A DNA stretch of 64,000 nucleotides, taken from assembly GCA_024226555.1 (NCBI GenBank), contig JAAELO010000494.1, forward strand, positions 62,001 to 126,000, given 5' to 3'. This DNA is from Desulfobacterales bacterium. GTDB lineage: Bacteria > Desulfobacterota > Desulfobacteria > Desulfobacterales > JAAELO01. Shown here piece after piece: positions 47,281 through 54,269 of this stretch. The first letter of the stretch is position 1. Each line of letters begins with the position of its first letter. The position numbers and the translations under genes were made by a program. A model generated the notes under the pieces. It saw only the letters and a list, made by a program, of their open reading frames with translations. It was not told the origin of the DNA and did not search any database.

Positions 47281-48768
47281 ATGAATAAAGAAAATAAACT
47301 AACACCCAAAGAGAAAGAATTTTGTCAAAATGTTGAGAAAGCTATCCTTGTAAATCAGTTTAGTGATGAAAGAGGTGCTTTGGATCTTAAAATTGCTGGT
47401 CTTTCTGAAAATAAAGGGTATGAAGAAACTTATGAAGCAGCTGTTGTAGAGGTTAATAACCAGATATATAAATTAGCCAAAAGAGGCATAACCTCACTTA
47501 CAAGAATCTCTACAAAAGATCGCAAACTTCTTCAAAATCTTTATTTGTTTGAGTTTTTCCATCTGTTTTTAGATGAGTTTGATGAATTCATATTGGATCA
47601 GGTAGACAACACAGAAAATAAATTGGTGGAATTTTCAGATAATGCTTTTAATTATCTACACGATAAAGGTTTTTCAACTGATGAATCAAGACACTTTTTC
47701 TCTCTGTCATTTCAGATAAGAAGAGCATTCTACTTTATCGACAGAAATCTGGTTGGTATTAGTGATAGTATGAAACAGTTCAGGAGAAACCTCTGGGATA
47801 ATGTTTTCACATGCGACCTTGATCTTTACAATGATTACCTGTGGAACAGGATGGAAGATTTTTCCACTCTTATATTAGGAGATACAGGCACAGGAAAAGG
47901 TACTGCTGCAAAAGCTATTGGAATGTCAGGCTATATCCCCTTTGATGAGAGAAAACAGAAATTTAAAGAGAATTTTAATAACTCATTTATTTCAATAAAC
48001 CTTTCACAATATTCTGAATCCTTAATAGAATCTGAACTTTTTGGCCATAAAAAAGGAGCTTTTACTGGTGCAGTTGGTGATCATCAGGGAGTTTTTGAAA
48101 CGTGTAGCAGCTATGGGTCTATCTTCCTGGATGAGATAGGGGATGTTTCCAAACCTGTTCAGATAAAACTGCTAAAGGTTTTGGAAGAGAGAGTTTACAC
48201 CCCGGTTGGTAGTCACACTGAAAAAAGATTTAAAGGAAGAATAATTGCTGCAACAAATAAAAATATTGATTCTCTACTATCTAAAGGGCATATGAGAGAT
48301 GATTTTTTCTATAGATTAAGTTCGGATATTATTGAAGTTCCTAAACTCTCACAAAGAATTAGAGAAAATTCATCGGAACTTACAGATATGGTAAATTTTA
48401 CAGTTCATAAAATTGTTGGTAAAAATTCAAAGGATCTGTCTAAACAGGTTAAATCATCCCTGCTTAAAACCCCTGGAAAAAACTATAACTGGCCTGGAAA
48501 CGTAAGGGAACTTGCTCAGGCTGTTAGAAGAATCCTTCTAAAAAAATCCTATGAAGGAAGGGGAACAGTTCATAGTGAGGGTAGCAACTCCATGTTATCC
48601 CGAAAGATGGATAGCGGAGAGATTGATGCTTTAAACCTTACCAAGGGCTATTGTTTCATGCTCTATGAAAGATATGGAACCTATGGTGAGGTTGCCAGAA
48701 GAACACAATTAGATAGAAGAACTGTTAAAAAATATATAGATGATTGGGACAATGAAACTTTAACATAA
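47281..48768 (+). CDS. Sigma-54-dependent transcriptional activator
   Basis: 495 residues. The AAA+ domain (about 190-430) has Walker A GDTGTGKGT (200-208), the sigma-54 contact loop GAFTGA (259-264), Walker B IFLDEIGD, and NWPGNVREL. The N-terminal 190 residues are mainly helical and match no sensor domain I know. The C-terminal helix-turn-helix is GEVARRTQLDRRTVKKYI, not the usual Fis type. The residue after the Walker Lys is Gly-Thr instead of Glu-Leu/Thr. It lies upstream of a giant membrane-protein gene and may control it. Confidence 0.85.
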   Translation: MNKENKLTPKEKEFCQNVEKAILVNQFSDERGALDLKIAGLSENKGYEETYEAAVVEVNNQIYKLAKRGITSLTRISTKDRKLLQNLYLFEFFHLFLDEFDEFILDQVDNTENKLVEFSDNAFNYLHDKGFSTDESRHFFSLSFQIRRAFYFIDRNLVGISDSMKQFRRNLWDNVFTCDLDLYNDYLWNRMEDFSTLILGDTGTGKGTAAKAIGMSGYIPFDERKQKFKENFNNSFISINLSQYSESLIESELFGHKKGAFTGAVGDHQGVFETCSSYGSIFLDEIGDVSKPVQIKLLKVLEERVYTPVGSHTEKRFKGRIIAATNKNIDSLLSKGHMRDDFFYRLSSDIIEVPKLSQRIRENSSELTDMVNFTVHKIVGKNSKDLSKQVKSSLLKTPGKNYNWPGNVRELAQAVRRILLKKSYEGRGTVHSEGSNSMLSRKMDSGEIDALNLTKGYCFMLYERYGTYGEVARRTQLDRRTVKKYIDDWDNETLT

Positions 48769-48815
48769 TAGGAAATTTATTTTAACTAAGAATGTATAAT
48801 AACTACCTTTTGGAA

Positions 48816-48872
48816 GTCAGCTATAAAACAAATATAAAAGAATGACATTTTTTTATTTGTATTTTAGCTGAC
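48816..48872. repeat. 19-bp imperfect inverted repeat
   Basis: GTCAGCTATAAAACAAATA (48816-48834) pairs with TATTTGTATTTTAGCTGAC (48854-48872), 17 of 19 positions. Next to it, ATGTATAATAACTACCTTTT resembles an end of the dispersed element. It could terminate the activator gene. The rest of the gap to 49119 shows no gene. Confidence 0.55.
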
Positions 48873-49119
48873 TAAAAAAACCATTTTCCCTATCATTAAT
48901 TGCTTTTCCCTTTATTCACCAAAAAAACATAAAACCTTCATATTTGTCTTTATCATTTCATGTAGGTTGTAAAGAAGTTATTATGTTTTTTACAACTATT
49001 TTACATTTGCTTTACTTTCAGATGACATCTTTATTCTTTAAACTTGTAACATAGTTGACAAAAGCGGGTAAATATTTAAAGGGCTACCTATAATCATCAA
49101 TAAATTAAGGGAGATAACT

Positions 49120-52100
49120 ATGAAGTTAATATTAAGGTGTTTTTTCTTCTCAACACTTTTCTTACTATTTTCATACAGTGCTTTTTCAGCACCTGCAAAG
49201 AACGTAGACACTGTTACAATGTCCTTTGAAGATTTTCTGAAATTGAGAGAGAAGGCGAAAGATAAGGAGATTAAAAGGAGTAAGCTCTTTTCCTATGAGA
49301 AGGCGATACTAACGGGAAAGGGTTTTATAAAGAAAAGTGAATATTTTATTAATTTTAATTCTAATATTTCTGTTACCTCCCATGAAGACAGAGACATTCT
49401 GGTGCCATTTTTATCCTCAGATCTAAACCTTGAATCTTTGACTGTTGATGGATTTGAATCTACCTGGATCAAAGAGGGAAAATCTTACAAGGTATATATT
49501 AAAGGTTCTGGAAAGCATGTTGTTAAGGCTAAGTTTACAGTAAAGCTAAGTGCGAAGGTCTGGCCAAGAAGTTTGTATCTGCCACTAATAAAAATACCTG
49601 GAAGCAGGATAAAAATAAAGGTTCCTGATAGGAATATTTCGGCTGAGTTTGACAGGGGAATAGCTTTTGAAAGTGCTCTTGGTAATGAGATTAATGGATA
49701 TATCCCTTCTGTTTCTGGTGTAACAATCAAATGGTTAAAGAAAAATACAACGAAGAAAAAAGTTCCTCTTAAGATGAATGCTACTGTTCATACGTATATA
49801 TCCCTTGAAGAAAAAGGTGCTTCGAGTGTTAGTGAGGTAAATTTCAAGGTTTTAAAAGGTGAAACAAACTTTTTTAAAATACGTGTTCCATCATCGGTTG
49901 ACATTTTGAATATTTTACCAAAAAATGGTGGTAAGCCTGTTTCCCAGTGGTTCTCAGAGAAAAGCGGCGATGATACAATAGTAAATATTTTTTCATCATA
50001 TAAGCAGAACAGATCTTTTGGAGTGAGGCTTTACTACGAAAAAACAGAAACAAAAGCTAATTTTATTTATGAAACCGCTCATATAAAACCTTTAAAAGTT
50101 GAACGCTTTGAAGAGCTTATTGCTGTTGGTTCTGGATCAAATGTTGAGATTGGAGAAGAGAGTGGTGAAAAAATTGAAAGGCGTGATGTTCGGTTTTTAC
50201 CTGCTGAGATCCAACGGGTTGCAAAATCCAATGCTCTTTTTTATTACAAAGCAAAAGCTTTGGATTTCAATTTAAAATTTAATGTTAAAAGTCATGAAAA
50301 TGCTCCTGTTTTAAAAATGAGAGTCAAAAGAGTTGATGTTGATAGTGTTATTACCAAAGAGGGAACGGTAATGACAAAAATTAAATATTCTGTTCAAAAC
50401 AACCAGGAACAGTATTTAAAAATACAGATACCCGAAAAATCAAAGCTTTTGTCTGCATTTTTAAGTGGAAAAGAGGTTCAACCTACAATTGATGATGACT
50501 ATTATCTAATCCCTATTACAAAATCCACGGGTAAGACATTTCCGGTTGAAATTGCCTTTTTGACTGAAAAAAAGGCTTTTAGTTCAATTGGTTATTGTTC
50601 TTTCGACCTTCCGTTAAAAGACATTCCTGTTGGTGAACTCTACTGGAATCTATACACCCCATCGGATTATCAACCAATATATTTTGGTGGAAATATAGTT
50701 AGAAGAAAACACAGTTTTTTTGATAATATCGCATTTTTTGTTCAAAATTCTTCTGAAACATCAAATGTTGCCTATGCAGGTGGTGGTTTTGAAAGTCAGA
50801 ATTATGAATATAACACAAAGGGACTTAGGAAAAGATTCAAATCAAAGGCTGGATATTTTAGCAAAAAAAATGAATCGTTAAATAATCAGATTAAAGTTAG
50901 TATTCCTGTTACCGGAACTAAATATAGATTTTCATCATACCTTGTGAATGGATTTTCTCCTGAGATATCATTTTTTTATATTAATGATAGTATAAAAAAC
51001 TTTATATCCTTTTTTGTAAGTATTTTCATGTTCTGTTTCACCTTTATTACACTGATATTTTTTATTGAGAGAGCTTCAATTCCTGAAAATCTTAAGAATA
51101 ATAAAATATATATATCTTTATGTGGAATTGCTTTTTTAATTTTAGTAGTTCTAATGACTTTTTCATTTGGAATATACTGGTGGCTATACAGCAGTGTTGT
51201 TAATGCATTTAAAGTATTTACAATTTATCAAAACAGATTGGTATCTAAAAGAATGAAAACTGAGTTTTCAGGATTTAAGAGATTTATAGCTGATGCGTAT
51301 ATTGTGGTTTTAATTTTAACTCTGCTAAGCTCAAGTAATAATACATTTCAACTGGTATTTTGCACATTATCTATAACATTTCATATCCTTCTGCCTGTTC
51401 TTATCAAAATCTTATCAAAGATTTTAGATTCGTTCCTGTCAATTTTCAGAGCGAAACCCAGTAAGGCTGTTCCACCAGCTCTTTTAATTATTTTTGTACT
51501 ATGCGGCTCTCTTCTATTTAATGAAAATGCCTTTGCAAACAAAGGAACTGTAACTCTTTCATATAAAACTGTTGAGAAAATGCTAAAGAAAATTGAGGAT
51601 AAAAAAAGAGCTGATCTGACTAAAATAGATAAAGATTATATATTTGGAAATGTTGCGATAAAGGGGCACATCTCCAAAAAATATGCAAAAATGAATCTTT
51701 CTGTTCCTGTTAGTATCATTTCAGATAATTATGTTATTGTTCCAATGTTTTCATCTGACATATCTATTATGAAAGCAACATTTCGCGGAAGACCCCTTTC
51801 TCTTTTCAACAAAAATAATCAGATCTGTTTTGAAACCCGGAAATTAAAAGGCAGGAAAGGACTTCTAAAAGTTGATTTAATAGTTCCTGTTAAAGAGAAA
51901 GGCGGAGTCCATGAATTTGCTCTAAATACCAGCCTTTTAAGAGGTGGAACTGTTGAATTTGGCTTTGAAAAGGAGATTAAATCTATCAATCTTAAAGGCG
52001 TTACCTGGCAAACAAGAACTGGTCAAAAGATAAAAGCTGCTCTTGGAAGATTTAAAACACTTCGGGGAGAACTTGCAACTTTTAAAAGGGAGAATGATGC

Positions 52101-53580
52101 AATAGCTGACAACTCAAAAAGAGTTAAAAAGCTTTACTCAAAAACATATACACTCCTGTCTTTTGAGGATGAAGTCGCAACATTTTACTCCTCTGTAAGG
52201 TATAAAATACTGAATGATCAAATCAGAGAGTTCAAGGTTAGCCTACCGGATAATGTTACTGTTAATGAGATTATCGGAGATGACCTTGAGGAGTGGAACC
52301 TTTTAAAAAAGGAGAAGGGTGTTAGCACGTACCTTGTGAAAGTTCTTTATCCTGCAACTGGAAAGTATGATCTTTCAATCCAATATGAGAAAGCGATCGA
52401 TAAAAGTTCAGATTTTGAAGTTCCTGAGCTGAAGATATTTGGTGTTGCCAGAAATGAAGGATACATCGGAGTTGAGATGCTCTCACAGGCAGAGATAACT
52501 TTAAAGGAGATTGATAAAGCAAAAGTTATTGATATTAAAGAGCTTCCCGGAATTATTAAAGAGGATGCCTATTCGCCATTTGTTTATGCCTTAAGATATA
52601 TTGAGACTCCATATAAAATTACTTTTGAAACTAAGAGATATACGAACTTTCAGATGGACCCTGCAATTTGTGACAGGATTGAATATATTCATGTAATTTC
52701 TCCTGAAGGGCAAATGCTGTCTCAAATTAGAATGTGGGTTAGAAATAGCCGGAAGCAATTTATTAAAGTAAAGTTGCCTGAAAATGGTAAAATTTTAAGT
52801 ACTTATCTTGACGGTAGAAGTGTAAAACCATCTCTTGGAAAAAAAGGAGAGATTCTTCTACCTTTAAAAAGGCAATCAGGCAGACCTTTTATCTTAGAAG
52901 CTGTATACAATGGAGGCTCTGTTGACATTGGTGATATCTCATCCTTTTCTAAAATAGTTCACCCATCTCTTGATATTGCATCTTCTGTTGTTGAAACTAT
53001 CCTGTATGTACCAAAAGATATTAAATTATCAATACTACCATCAGTTTTTAATGAAACACAGGGTATGAGGTTTATTGGGTGGGGAGCAAGTGATGGATTG
53101 GTTCCAAAAGATGAAATCAGTGACGATTTGGACACAGAAGTATTTAATTTGGCACCAAATCGAATAGTTAATAATAAACAGCAACAAAAAGCACTTGTAA
53201 AAGAGAAAAAAATTGGTGGAACCCTATCCATTAAAATTGATCTGCCAAAACATGGGAGAGTGTATTCTTTTGATACTCTTTATGTTCCTGTGAACAAAGA
53301 ACTTGTACTAAGTTTTTTCACAACTAACAAAATAACATATGTGATTGTGACTTTTTTACTTGTGATATTTTTCATAGTGACAGGATTTTTAATCAGATAT
53401 GTTCTTATAAGAAAAAACAGTATTAGGGTCAGTTTTATCGCTCTAAACTGTATTTTTATATACCTTTCAAATATGCCATGGACTGAAATTATAACATGTA
53501 TAGTAATTGGAACAATTGCTTCATTTTTATACAACAGATATGGCGAAAAGATTAAAGGTAAAATTAAAGCATGGGCTTAG
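49120..53580 (+). CDS. Giant internally duplicated membrane/extracytoplasmic protein
   Basis: 1486 residues. A signal peptide (residues 1-24, ending AFSAPAK) opens a beta-rich extracytoplasmic region to about 620, then four to five membrane helices (about 624-784). A second signal-like helix (LLIIFVLCGSLLFNENAFA, to about 806) opens another beta-rich region, ending in two or three helices (about 1390-1475). The units match: VTMSFEDFLKLREKAKDK versus VTLSYKTVEKMLKKIEDK, and DILVPFLSSDLNLESLTVDG versus YVIVPMFSSDISIMKATFRG. So this is a fused tandem duplication. I know no family name. The ATG follows GGGAGA; a sigma-54 activator gene is upstream and a terminator downstream. Confidence 0.75.
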   Translation: MKLILRCFFFSTLFLLFSYSAFSAPAKNVDTVTMSFEDFLKLREKAKDKEIKRSKLFSYEKAILTGKGFIKKSEYFINFNSNISVTSHEDRDILVPFLSSDLNLESLTVDGFESTWIKEGKSYKVYIKGSGKHVVKAKFTVKLSAKVWPRSLYLPLIKIPGSRIKIKVPDRNISAEFDRGIAFESALGNEINGYIPSVSGVTIKWLKKNTTKKKVPLKMNATVHTYISLEEKGASSVSEVNFKVLKGETNFFKIRVPSSVDILNILPKNGGKPVSQWFSEKSGDDTIVNIFSSYKQNRSFGVRLYYEKTETKANFIYETAHIKPLKVERFEELIAVGSGSNVEIGEESGEKIERRDVRFLPAEIQRVAKSNALFYYKAKALDFNLKFNVKSHENAPVLKMRVKRVDVDSVITKEGTVMTKIKYSVQNNQEQYLKIQIPEKSKLLSAFLSGKEVQPTIDDDYYLIPITKSTGKTFPVEIAFLTEKKAFSSIGYCSFDLPLKDIPVGELYWNLYTPSDYQPIYFGGNIVRRKHSFFDNIAFFVQNSSETSNVAYAGGGFESQNYEYNTKGLRKRFKSKAGYFSKKNESLNNQIKVSIPVTGTKYRFSSYLVNGFSPEISFFYINDSIKNFISFFVSIFMFCFTFITLIFFIERASIPENLKNNKIYISLCGIAFLILVVLMTFSFGIYWWLYSSVVNAFKVFTIYQNRLVSKRMKTEFSGFKRFIADAYIVVLILTLLSSSNNTFQLVFCTLSITFHILLPVLIKILSKILDSFLSIFRAKPSKAVPPALLIIFVLCGSLLFNENAFANKGTVTLSYKTVEKMLKKIEDKKRADLTKIDKDYIFGNVAIKGHISKKYAKMNLSVPVSIISDNYVIVPMFSSDISIMKATFRGRPLSLFNKNNQICFETRKLKGRKGLLKVDLIVPVKEKGGVHEFALNTSLLRGGTVEFGFEKEIKSINLKGVTWQTRTGQKIKAALGRFKTLRGELATFKRENDAIADNSKRVKKLYSKTYTLLSFEDEVATFYSSVRYKILNDQIREFKVSLPDNVTVNEIIGDDLEEWNLLKKEKGVSTYLVKVLYPATGKYDLSIQYEKAIDKSSDFEVPELKIFGVARNEGYIGVEMLSQAEITLKEIDKAKVIDIKELPGIIKEDAYSPFVYALRYIETPYKITFETKRYTNFQMDPAICDRIEYIHVISPEGQMLSQIRMWVRNSRKQFIKVKLPENGKILSTYLDGRSVKPSLGKKGEILLPLKRQSGRPFILEAVYNGGSVDIGDISSFSKIVHPSLDIASSVVETILYVPKDIKLSILPSVFNETQGMRFIGWGASDGLVPKDEISDDLDTEVFNLAPNRIVNNKQQQKALVKEKKIGGTLSIKIDLPKHGRVYSFDTLYVPVNKELVLSFFTTNKITYVIVTFLLVIFFIVTGFLIRYVLIRKNSIRVSFIALNCIFIYLSNMPWTEIITCIVIGTIASFLYNRYGEKIKGKIKAWA

Positions 53581-53696: not shown

Positions 53697-54269
53697 ATGG
53701 TTAAATTAATTTCGGTTATAATATGTTTTATATTTGGTTTTTTTCTAATCTCATATTCATCATCAACATCACCAGAGGCGATTACAAAATATAGTAATGA
53801 AGAAGTTAGCATTGAATTTAATGAAAAGATATTAATAAAGGAACCTGGCTTTGATAAGCCTGAGCAACCTTATTTTGCAACTGCTATTTCATTAGTTAAG
53901 TTTAACAAAGTTAAAATACAGGAAGGGAATATTCAACAGGTTATTCCGGGTAAAGATGGATATTTATCGAAGATGTTCATACTGCCTTACAGATCACCTG
54001 AATTTGTTAAAGAAATTCTTGGCAAAATCACATTAATGAAGAAAAAACATGAACAATATGTTCCTTTTTCAATGGAGAGTTCTGAGAAACAAACAATGGG
54101 ATGGCGTTATCAGGTAGGAAAATTGACTTTTGATCACTATATGGTTTTTGGAAAGAAATATAACTACCTCTTTATATCTTCACACTATGGAAGTACTGGA
54201 GCTATTGAGAAAGTTATCAGGATTATGAGTTATAATGAATCTCTTATAAGTTATTTAAATAAGAACTAA
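53697..54269 (+). CDS. Exported or membrane-anchored hypothetical protein
   Basis: 190 residues. An N-terminal hydrophobic segment (ISVIICFIFGFFLISYS) is followed by a soluble region; no lipobox Cys. No family is recognised. AAAGGAAAAA precedes the ATG. Its stop overlaps the start of the next small gene (TAATG). Confidence 0.6.
   Translation: MVKLISVIICFIFGFFLISYSSSTSPEAITKYSNEEVSIEFNEKILIKEPGFDKPEQPYFATAISLVKFNKVKIQEGNIQQVIPGKDGYLSKMFILPYRSPEFVKEILGKITLMKKKHEQYVPFSMESSEKQTMGWRYQVGKLTFDHYMVFGKKYNYLFISSHYGSTGAIEKVIRIMSYNESLISYLNKN

Follow-up and report, generated by a model that had tools for sequence, protein, structure and literature searches.

A Tandem Duplication Joined by an Internal Signal-Peptide-Like Helix in a Desulfobacterales Membrane Protein, a Candidate Fusion of Two Adjacent Genes

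The cytochrome b/c1 precursor of Bradyrhizobium, FbcH, is encoded by one gene; it carries an internal signal after membrane helices and is cut into two membrane proteins. Cleavable internal signal peptides, although common among viral polyproteins, are rare in bacterial ones, and no paper on a bacterial internal-signal precedent was found in the literature library searched. Here we describe a gene from a 64,000-nucleotide stretch of DNA of a Desulfobacterales bacterium (the window) in which two homologous exported units follow each other in one reading frame, with a helix resembling a signal peptide between them.

Two homologous units in one reading frame

The fused gene, the single copy of its family in its own genome, encodes 1486 amino acids (Table 1), and GGGAG, a ribosome-site-like sequence, lies directly 5' of its ATG. 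When residues 1 to 785 were compared with residues 771 to 1486 by blastp, the alignment scored 142 bits (E value, 2e-39), with 22% identity over 711 columns, which bears out an earlier note on this DNA that had proposed two homologous units of about 700 residues. Smith-Waterman alignment of the ectodomains alone scored 350, compared to a mean of 46.6 (standard deviation, 6.8; maximum, 77) for 300 shuffled comparisons. Thus, the similarity between the halves is far above chance level.

Hydropathy peaks were found at residues 3 to 21, within 624 to 695, within 717 to 771, at 783 to 801, within 1395 to 1434, and within 1444 to 1472. A loose cleavage-site scan gave possible sites at residues 20, 23, and 26 for the signal peptide of unit 1. 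The membrane helices in the model of unit 2 are at 598 to 623, 627 to 643, and 648 to 679 in mature-unit numbering. The same layout had been claimed for both units; the export helix, the ectodomain, and the first anchor do recur, but the membrane parts are unlike, with about five predicted helices in unit 1 and about three in unit 2, so that the clear repeat does not extend over the whole membrane part.

Table 1. Positions of the fused gene and its parts in the window
Feature	Position	Strand	Basis
Whole fused gene, 1486 aa and stop (ATG at 49120; stop codon ends at 53580)	49120..53580	+	Open reading frame
Unit 1 N-terminal signal peptide, about aa 1-24	49120..49191	+	Hydropathy peak at 3-21
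Unit 1 ectodomain, D1 aa 61-215, D2 and D3 aa 216-539	49300..50736	+	Homology to unit 2 and alignment; boundaries approximate
Membrane region of unit 1 (aa 629-770) with about five helices	51004..51429	+	Hydropathy and alternating loop charge
Internal signal-peptide-like helix, aa 783-806, ending in AFA	51466..51537	+	Hydropathy, orthologue alignment, site scan
Unit 2 past the putative cleavage site, aa 807-1486	51538..53577	+	AlphaFold2 model, mean pLDDT 81.5
Unit 2 ectodomain, D1 aa 840-986, D2 aa 1004-1178, D3 aa 1179-1319	51637..53076	+	Predicted strands; boundaries approximate
C-terminal part of unit 2, with a beta hairpin, about three membrane helices, and an end in the cytoplasm	53254..53577	+	Model helices, K/R-rich tail

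Immediately 5' of the fused gene, at a distance of 352 bases, the window encodes a sigma-54 activator whose AAA domain is RtcR-like (47281 to 48768), for which no link to the fused gene was found. A sigma-54 promoter of the fused gene on which this AAA regulator would act was considered and rejected; there was no consensus site in the gap at 48769 to 49119 and no excess of such sites in the window. Just downstream on the same strand (53697 to 54269) is a gene for a 190-amino-acid protein with a hydrophobic N terminus and no Pfam match.

Relatives and duplication history

Neither the window protein nor any of 24 family members had a match above a curated cut-off in searches of Pfam, NCBIfam, and PDB sequences, in agreement with the earlier note, to which no known family had come to mind. 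DUF4898 was rejected as a candidate, because its match to the window protein was under the curated cut-off and only 2 of the 24 members matched it at all. A plasmid search yielded no usable relative. A family profile was started from an alignment of both halves with the first relatives. Within the window's order, this first alignment detected members in 10 of 242 genomes and an improved profile in 14 of 389; across the phylum, the family was present in 10 of 395 genomes. A scan of named genomes gave no match with the window protein alone as the query and four loci with an alignment of unit 2. The family is patchy within the Desulfobacterales and the wider phylum, where it occurs in three architectures, and it constitutes a membrane-anchored, beta-ectodomain family missing from Pfam and NCBIfam.

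Single units of about 670 to 890 amino acids (L038, L039, L044, and L070-L072) represent the first architecture. Adjacent pairs, in which the two genes are on the same strand, overlap or lie no more than about 10 bases apart, and each have their own signal peptide, were found in every one of the four genomes sampled from one class. Fused doubles are encoded in the window, in Desulfococcaceae bacterium HSG8 (1514 amino acids), and in Desulfobacteraceae bacterium S20.Bin143 (at least 1412 amino acids; the gene runs off its contig), and a partial sequence (L050) continues in frame from the membrane helices via the internal helix into unit 2. The earlier proposal that two tandem genes were fused, with relatives that retain two separate genes as its suggested check, is thus supported by the significant self-alignment and by the existence of both separate pairs and single-unit relatives.

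In Desulfobacterales bacterium PL23a_bin.99 (PL23), the same two units lie in different frames, which adjoin at a run of six T residues. The first start codon of its second open reading frame is beyond most of the signal helix, so that unit 2 would be without an export signal if the gene is split. This frame break may reflect decay, an assembly error, or a frameshift. A programmed frameshift at the T run was not accepted; a single instance, from a genome in which a further family gene is also broken, is too little for that. The other broken gene is a single-unit member (L042:6750-9022) with a deletion of about 100 codons and a frame change.

Other loci differ in composition. Three tandem units are found in G059 (L041:5804-16818), where a separate gene overlaps the start of a fused double of 2539 amino acids. 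This much-diverged double has its own internal helix, which ends in ENADA before KK. D2-like segments are repeated in longer relatives, one of which follows, in the locus L043:1098-8146, genes for an ECF-type sigma factor and a 991-amino-acid protein that starts with an anti-sigma-like HxxxCxxC motif and has one membrane helix and a segment that by eye is vWA-like. Among the separate pairs (L066-L069), the pair at L066 adjoins genes for FGE-sulfatase-like, metallo-beta-lactamase-fold, and PrsW protease proteins, and the neighbors at the other loci look similar.

In the phylogenetic tree, the first units (U1) formed one clade and the second units (U2) another, each with support of 100/100, and the window and PL23 were the nearest pair in both, which indicates that U1 and U2 have been passed on together from a time before these lineages diverged. 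The units of G059 fell outside both clades, but on long branches. This placement suggests, short of proof, that its double arose by an independent fusion.

It is improbable, in our judgment, that the duplication took place inside a single long gene that never passed through a two-gene stage, in which case the internal helix would be merely a copied segment. A topology with U1 and U2 as sister clades was not rejected in the approximately unbiased (AU) test (P = 0.43), and the duplication may thus be confined to this lineage. However, the repeat includes a whole signal peptide, and relatives have adjacent separate genes, including the separate G059 copy that overlaps a fused double. AU tests that linked U1 or U2 to the separate pairs gave P values of 0.17 and 0.06. 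These tests decide neither the sisterhood of U1 and U2 nor their pairing with separate genes, so that the pairs are putative orthologues of U1 and U2 and a putative ancestral state of the fused gene.

Topology and the internal helix

The loops that follow the unit 1 ectodomain in the window protein contain 3, 0, 6, 0, and 5 lysine and arginine residues, and the same alternation was present in HSG8 and in the S20.Bin143 loops that were counted. These alternating charges point to five helices in unit 1 and to an internal helix that starts in the cytoplasm (N-in). Hydropathy, the orthologue alignment, and the loop charges are consistent in placing an N-in signal sequence between two exported parts. 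The export-like helix ending in AFA that had been noted earlier was recovered, with the helix at about residues 783 to 803 and A-F-A at 804 to 806. No ATG, GTG, or TTG codon is present at residues 741 to 800 of the window protein. Thus, it seems unlikely that unit 2 is translated separately with its signal, barring an unusual start.

Alanine occupies the expected −1 position of the putative cleavage site in each of the five orthologues, whether fused or split (AFA in the window, IFA in PL23, and AWA, LQA, and LFA), and the −3 residue is isoleucine or leucine in three of the five, which is permitted but less than ideal. The internal helices of the window protein and HSG8 are only 25% identical, compared to 46% for the N-terminal signal peptide (SP1), 24 to 35% for the membrane helices, and 45 to 62% for parts of the ectodomains. 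Among the fused orthologues, this helix evolves at a signal-peptide-like rate, and the −1 alanine is nonetheless kept.

A plausible though less probable reading than cleavage is that the same fusion has an internal helix serving as an uncleaved signal anchor, giving one chain with about nine membrane helices and the ectodomains side by side. The topology fits equally well without a cut, and a single frame has been retained in the window, HSG8, and S20.Bin143. The cleavage motif is weak by itself, since the loose site scan also matches other membrane helices and motifs this strong arise by chance beside them. Retention of the −1 alanine in an otherwise poorly conserved helix argues against an uncleaved anchor, as does the ADA at the end of the corresponding helix in the diverged G059 double.

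We favor, at slightly better than even confidence, a fusion of tandem copies whose product would be cleaved by signal peptidase I to give two anchored, periplasm-facing proteins that act together. According to this model, two tandem copies, each with a signal peptide, a beta ectodomain, and a membrane anchor, would have been joined in one reading frame when the stop codon between them was lost. The C-terminal end of the upstream copy is cytoplasmic, and a signal peptide has to begin on that side of the membrane, so loss of the stop would leave both ectodomains outside. The signal peptide of the second copy would reopen translocation in the middle of the chain, and signal peptidase I probably cuts after the AFA at residue 806. 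The cut would yield equal amounts of two membrane-anchored beta-sandwich proteins facing the periplasm, which may act jointly as nonenzymatic scaffold or binding proteins. More tentatively, such self-splitting paralogue pairs may be recurrent, in which case tandem copies of this envelope family would fuse repeatedly via the signal peptide of the downstream copy, and signal peptidase would free a fixed 1:1 pair. The fused family members are open to a direct test by N-terminal proteomics.

Predicted fold and comparison with known systems

The AlphaFold2 models are locally confident, with a mean pLDDT of 87.3 for D2 plus D3 in addition to the value for unit 2 in Table 1. Comparison with hhalign suggested that D2 and D3 are related (P = 0.00018) and detected no relation of D1 to either. 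Foldseek ranked ribophorin I/Ost1 first for both models (E values, 3.8e-10 and 9.3e-9; TM-scores, 0.2 to 0.37), followed by integrin alpha, adaptor mu, M1 aminopeptidase, and inter-alpha-inhibitor chains. The low TM-scores suggest tandem beta-sandwich modules rather than membership in any of these families. No catalytic motif was recognized in the tandem beta domains, and the neighbors differ among the loci of the fused genomes, with no conserved neighbor or pathway pointing to a function. A role in the periplasm as a scaffold or binding protein is the likeliest.

In Ost1, two beta-rich luminal domains that resemble each other are combined with a membrane anchor (PMC7226087). The resemblance of the window protein to it, although the best structural match, is weak, and no sequence match to ribophorin I was found in Pfam (window protein, E values up to 1) or in PDB (family profile, E values up to 1). 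A role in an oligosaccharyltransferase was rejected, as no match to STT3 (PF02516) was found in the window's own genome, which is 98% complete, whereas the control search found STT3 in archaea. The weaker matches to the M1 aminopeptidase N-domain, inter-alpha-inhibitor, integrin alpha, and adaptor mu share a general beta-sandwich kind. The HExxH zinc motif of M1 aminopeptidase is absent from the translation, which has no Pfam match to that family either, and the fused-gene locus has no peptidase or coat context.

The presence of single genes, abutting genes, and in-frame fusions in one unnamed family shows how a polyprotein of this type could arise. The closest counterpart in organization is FbcH, but the two products of FbcH are unrelated to each other, whereas the units of the window protein are paralogues and their separation by cleavage is putative.
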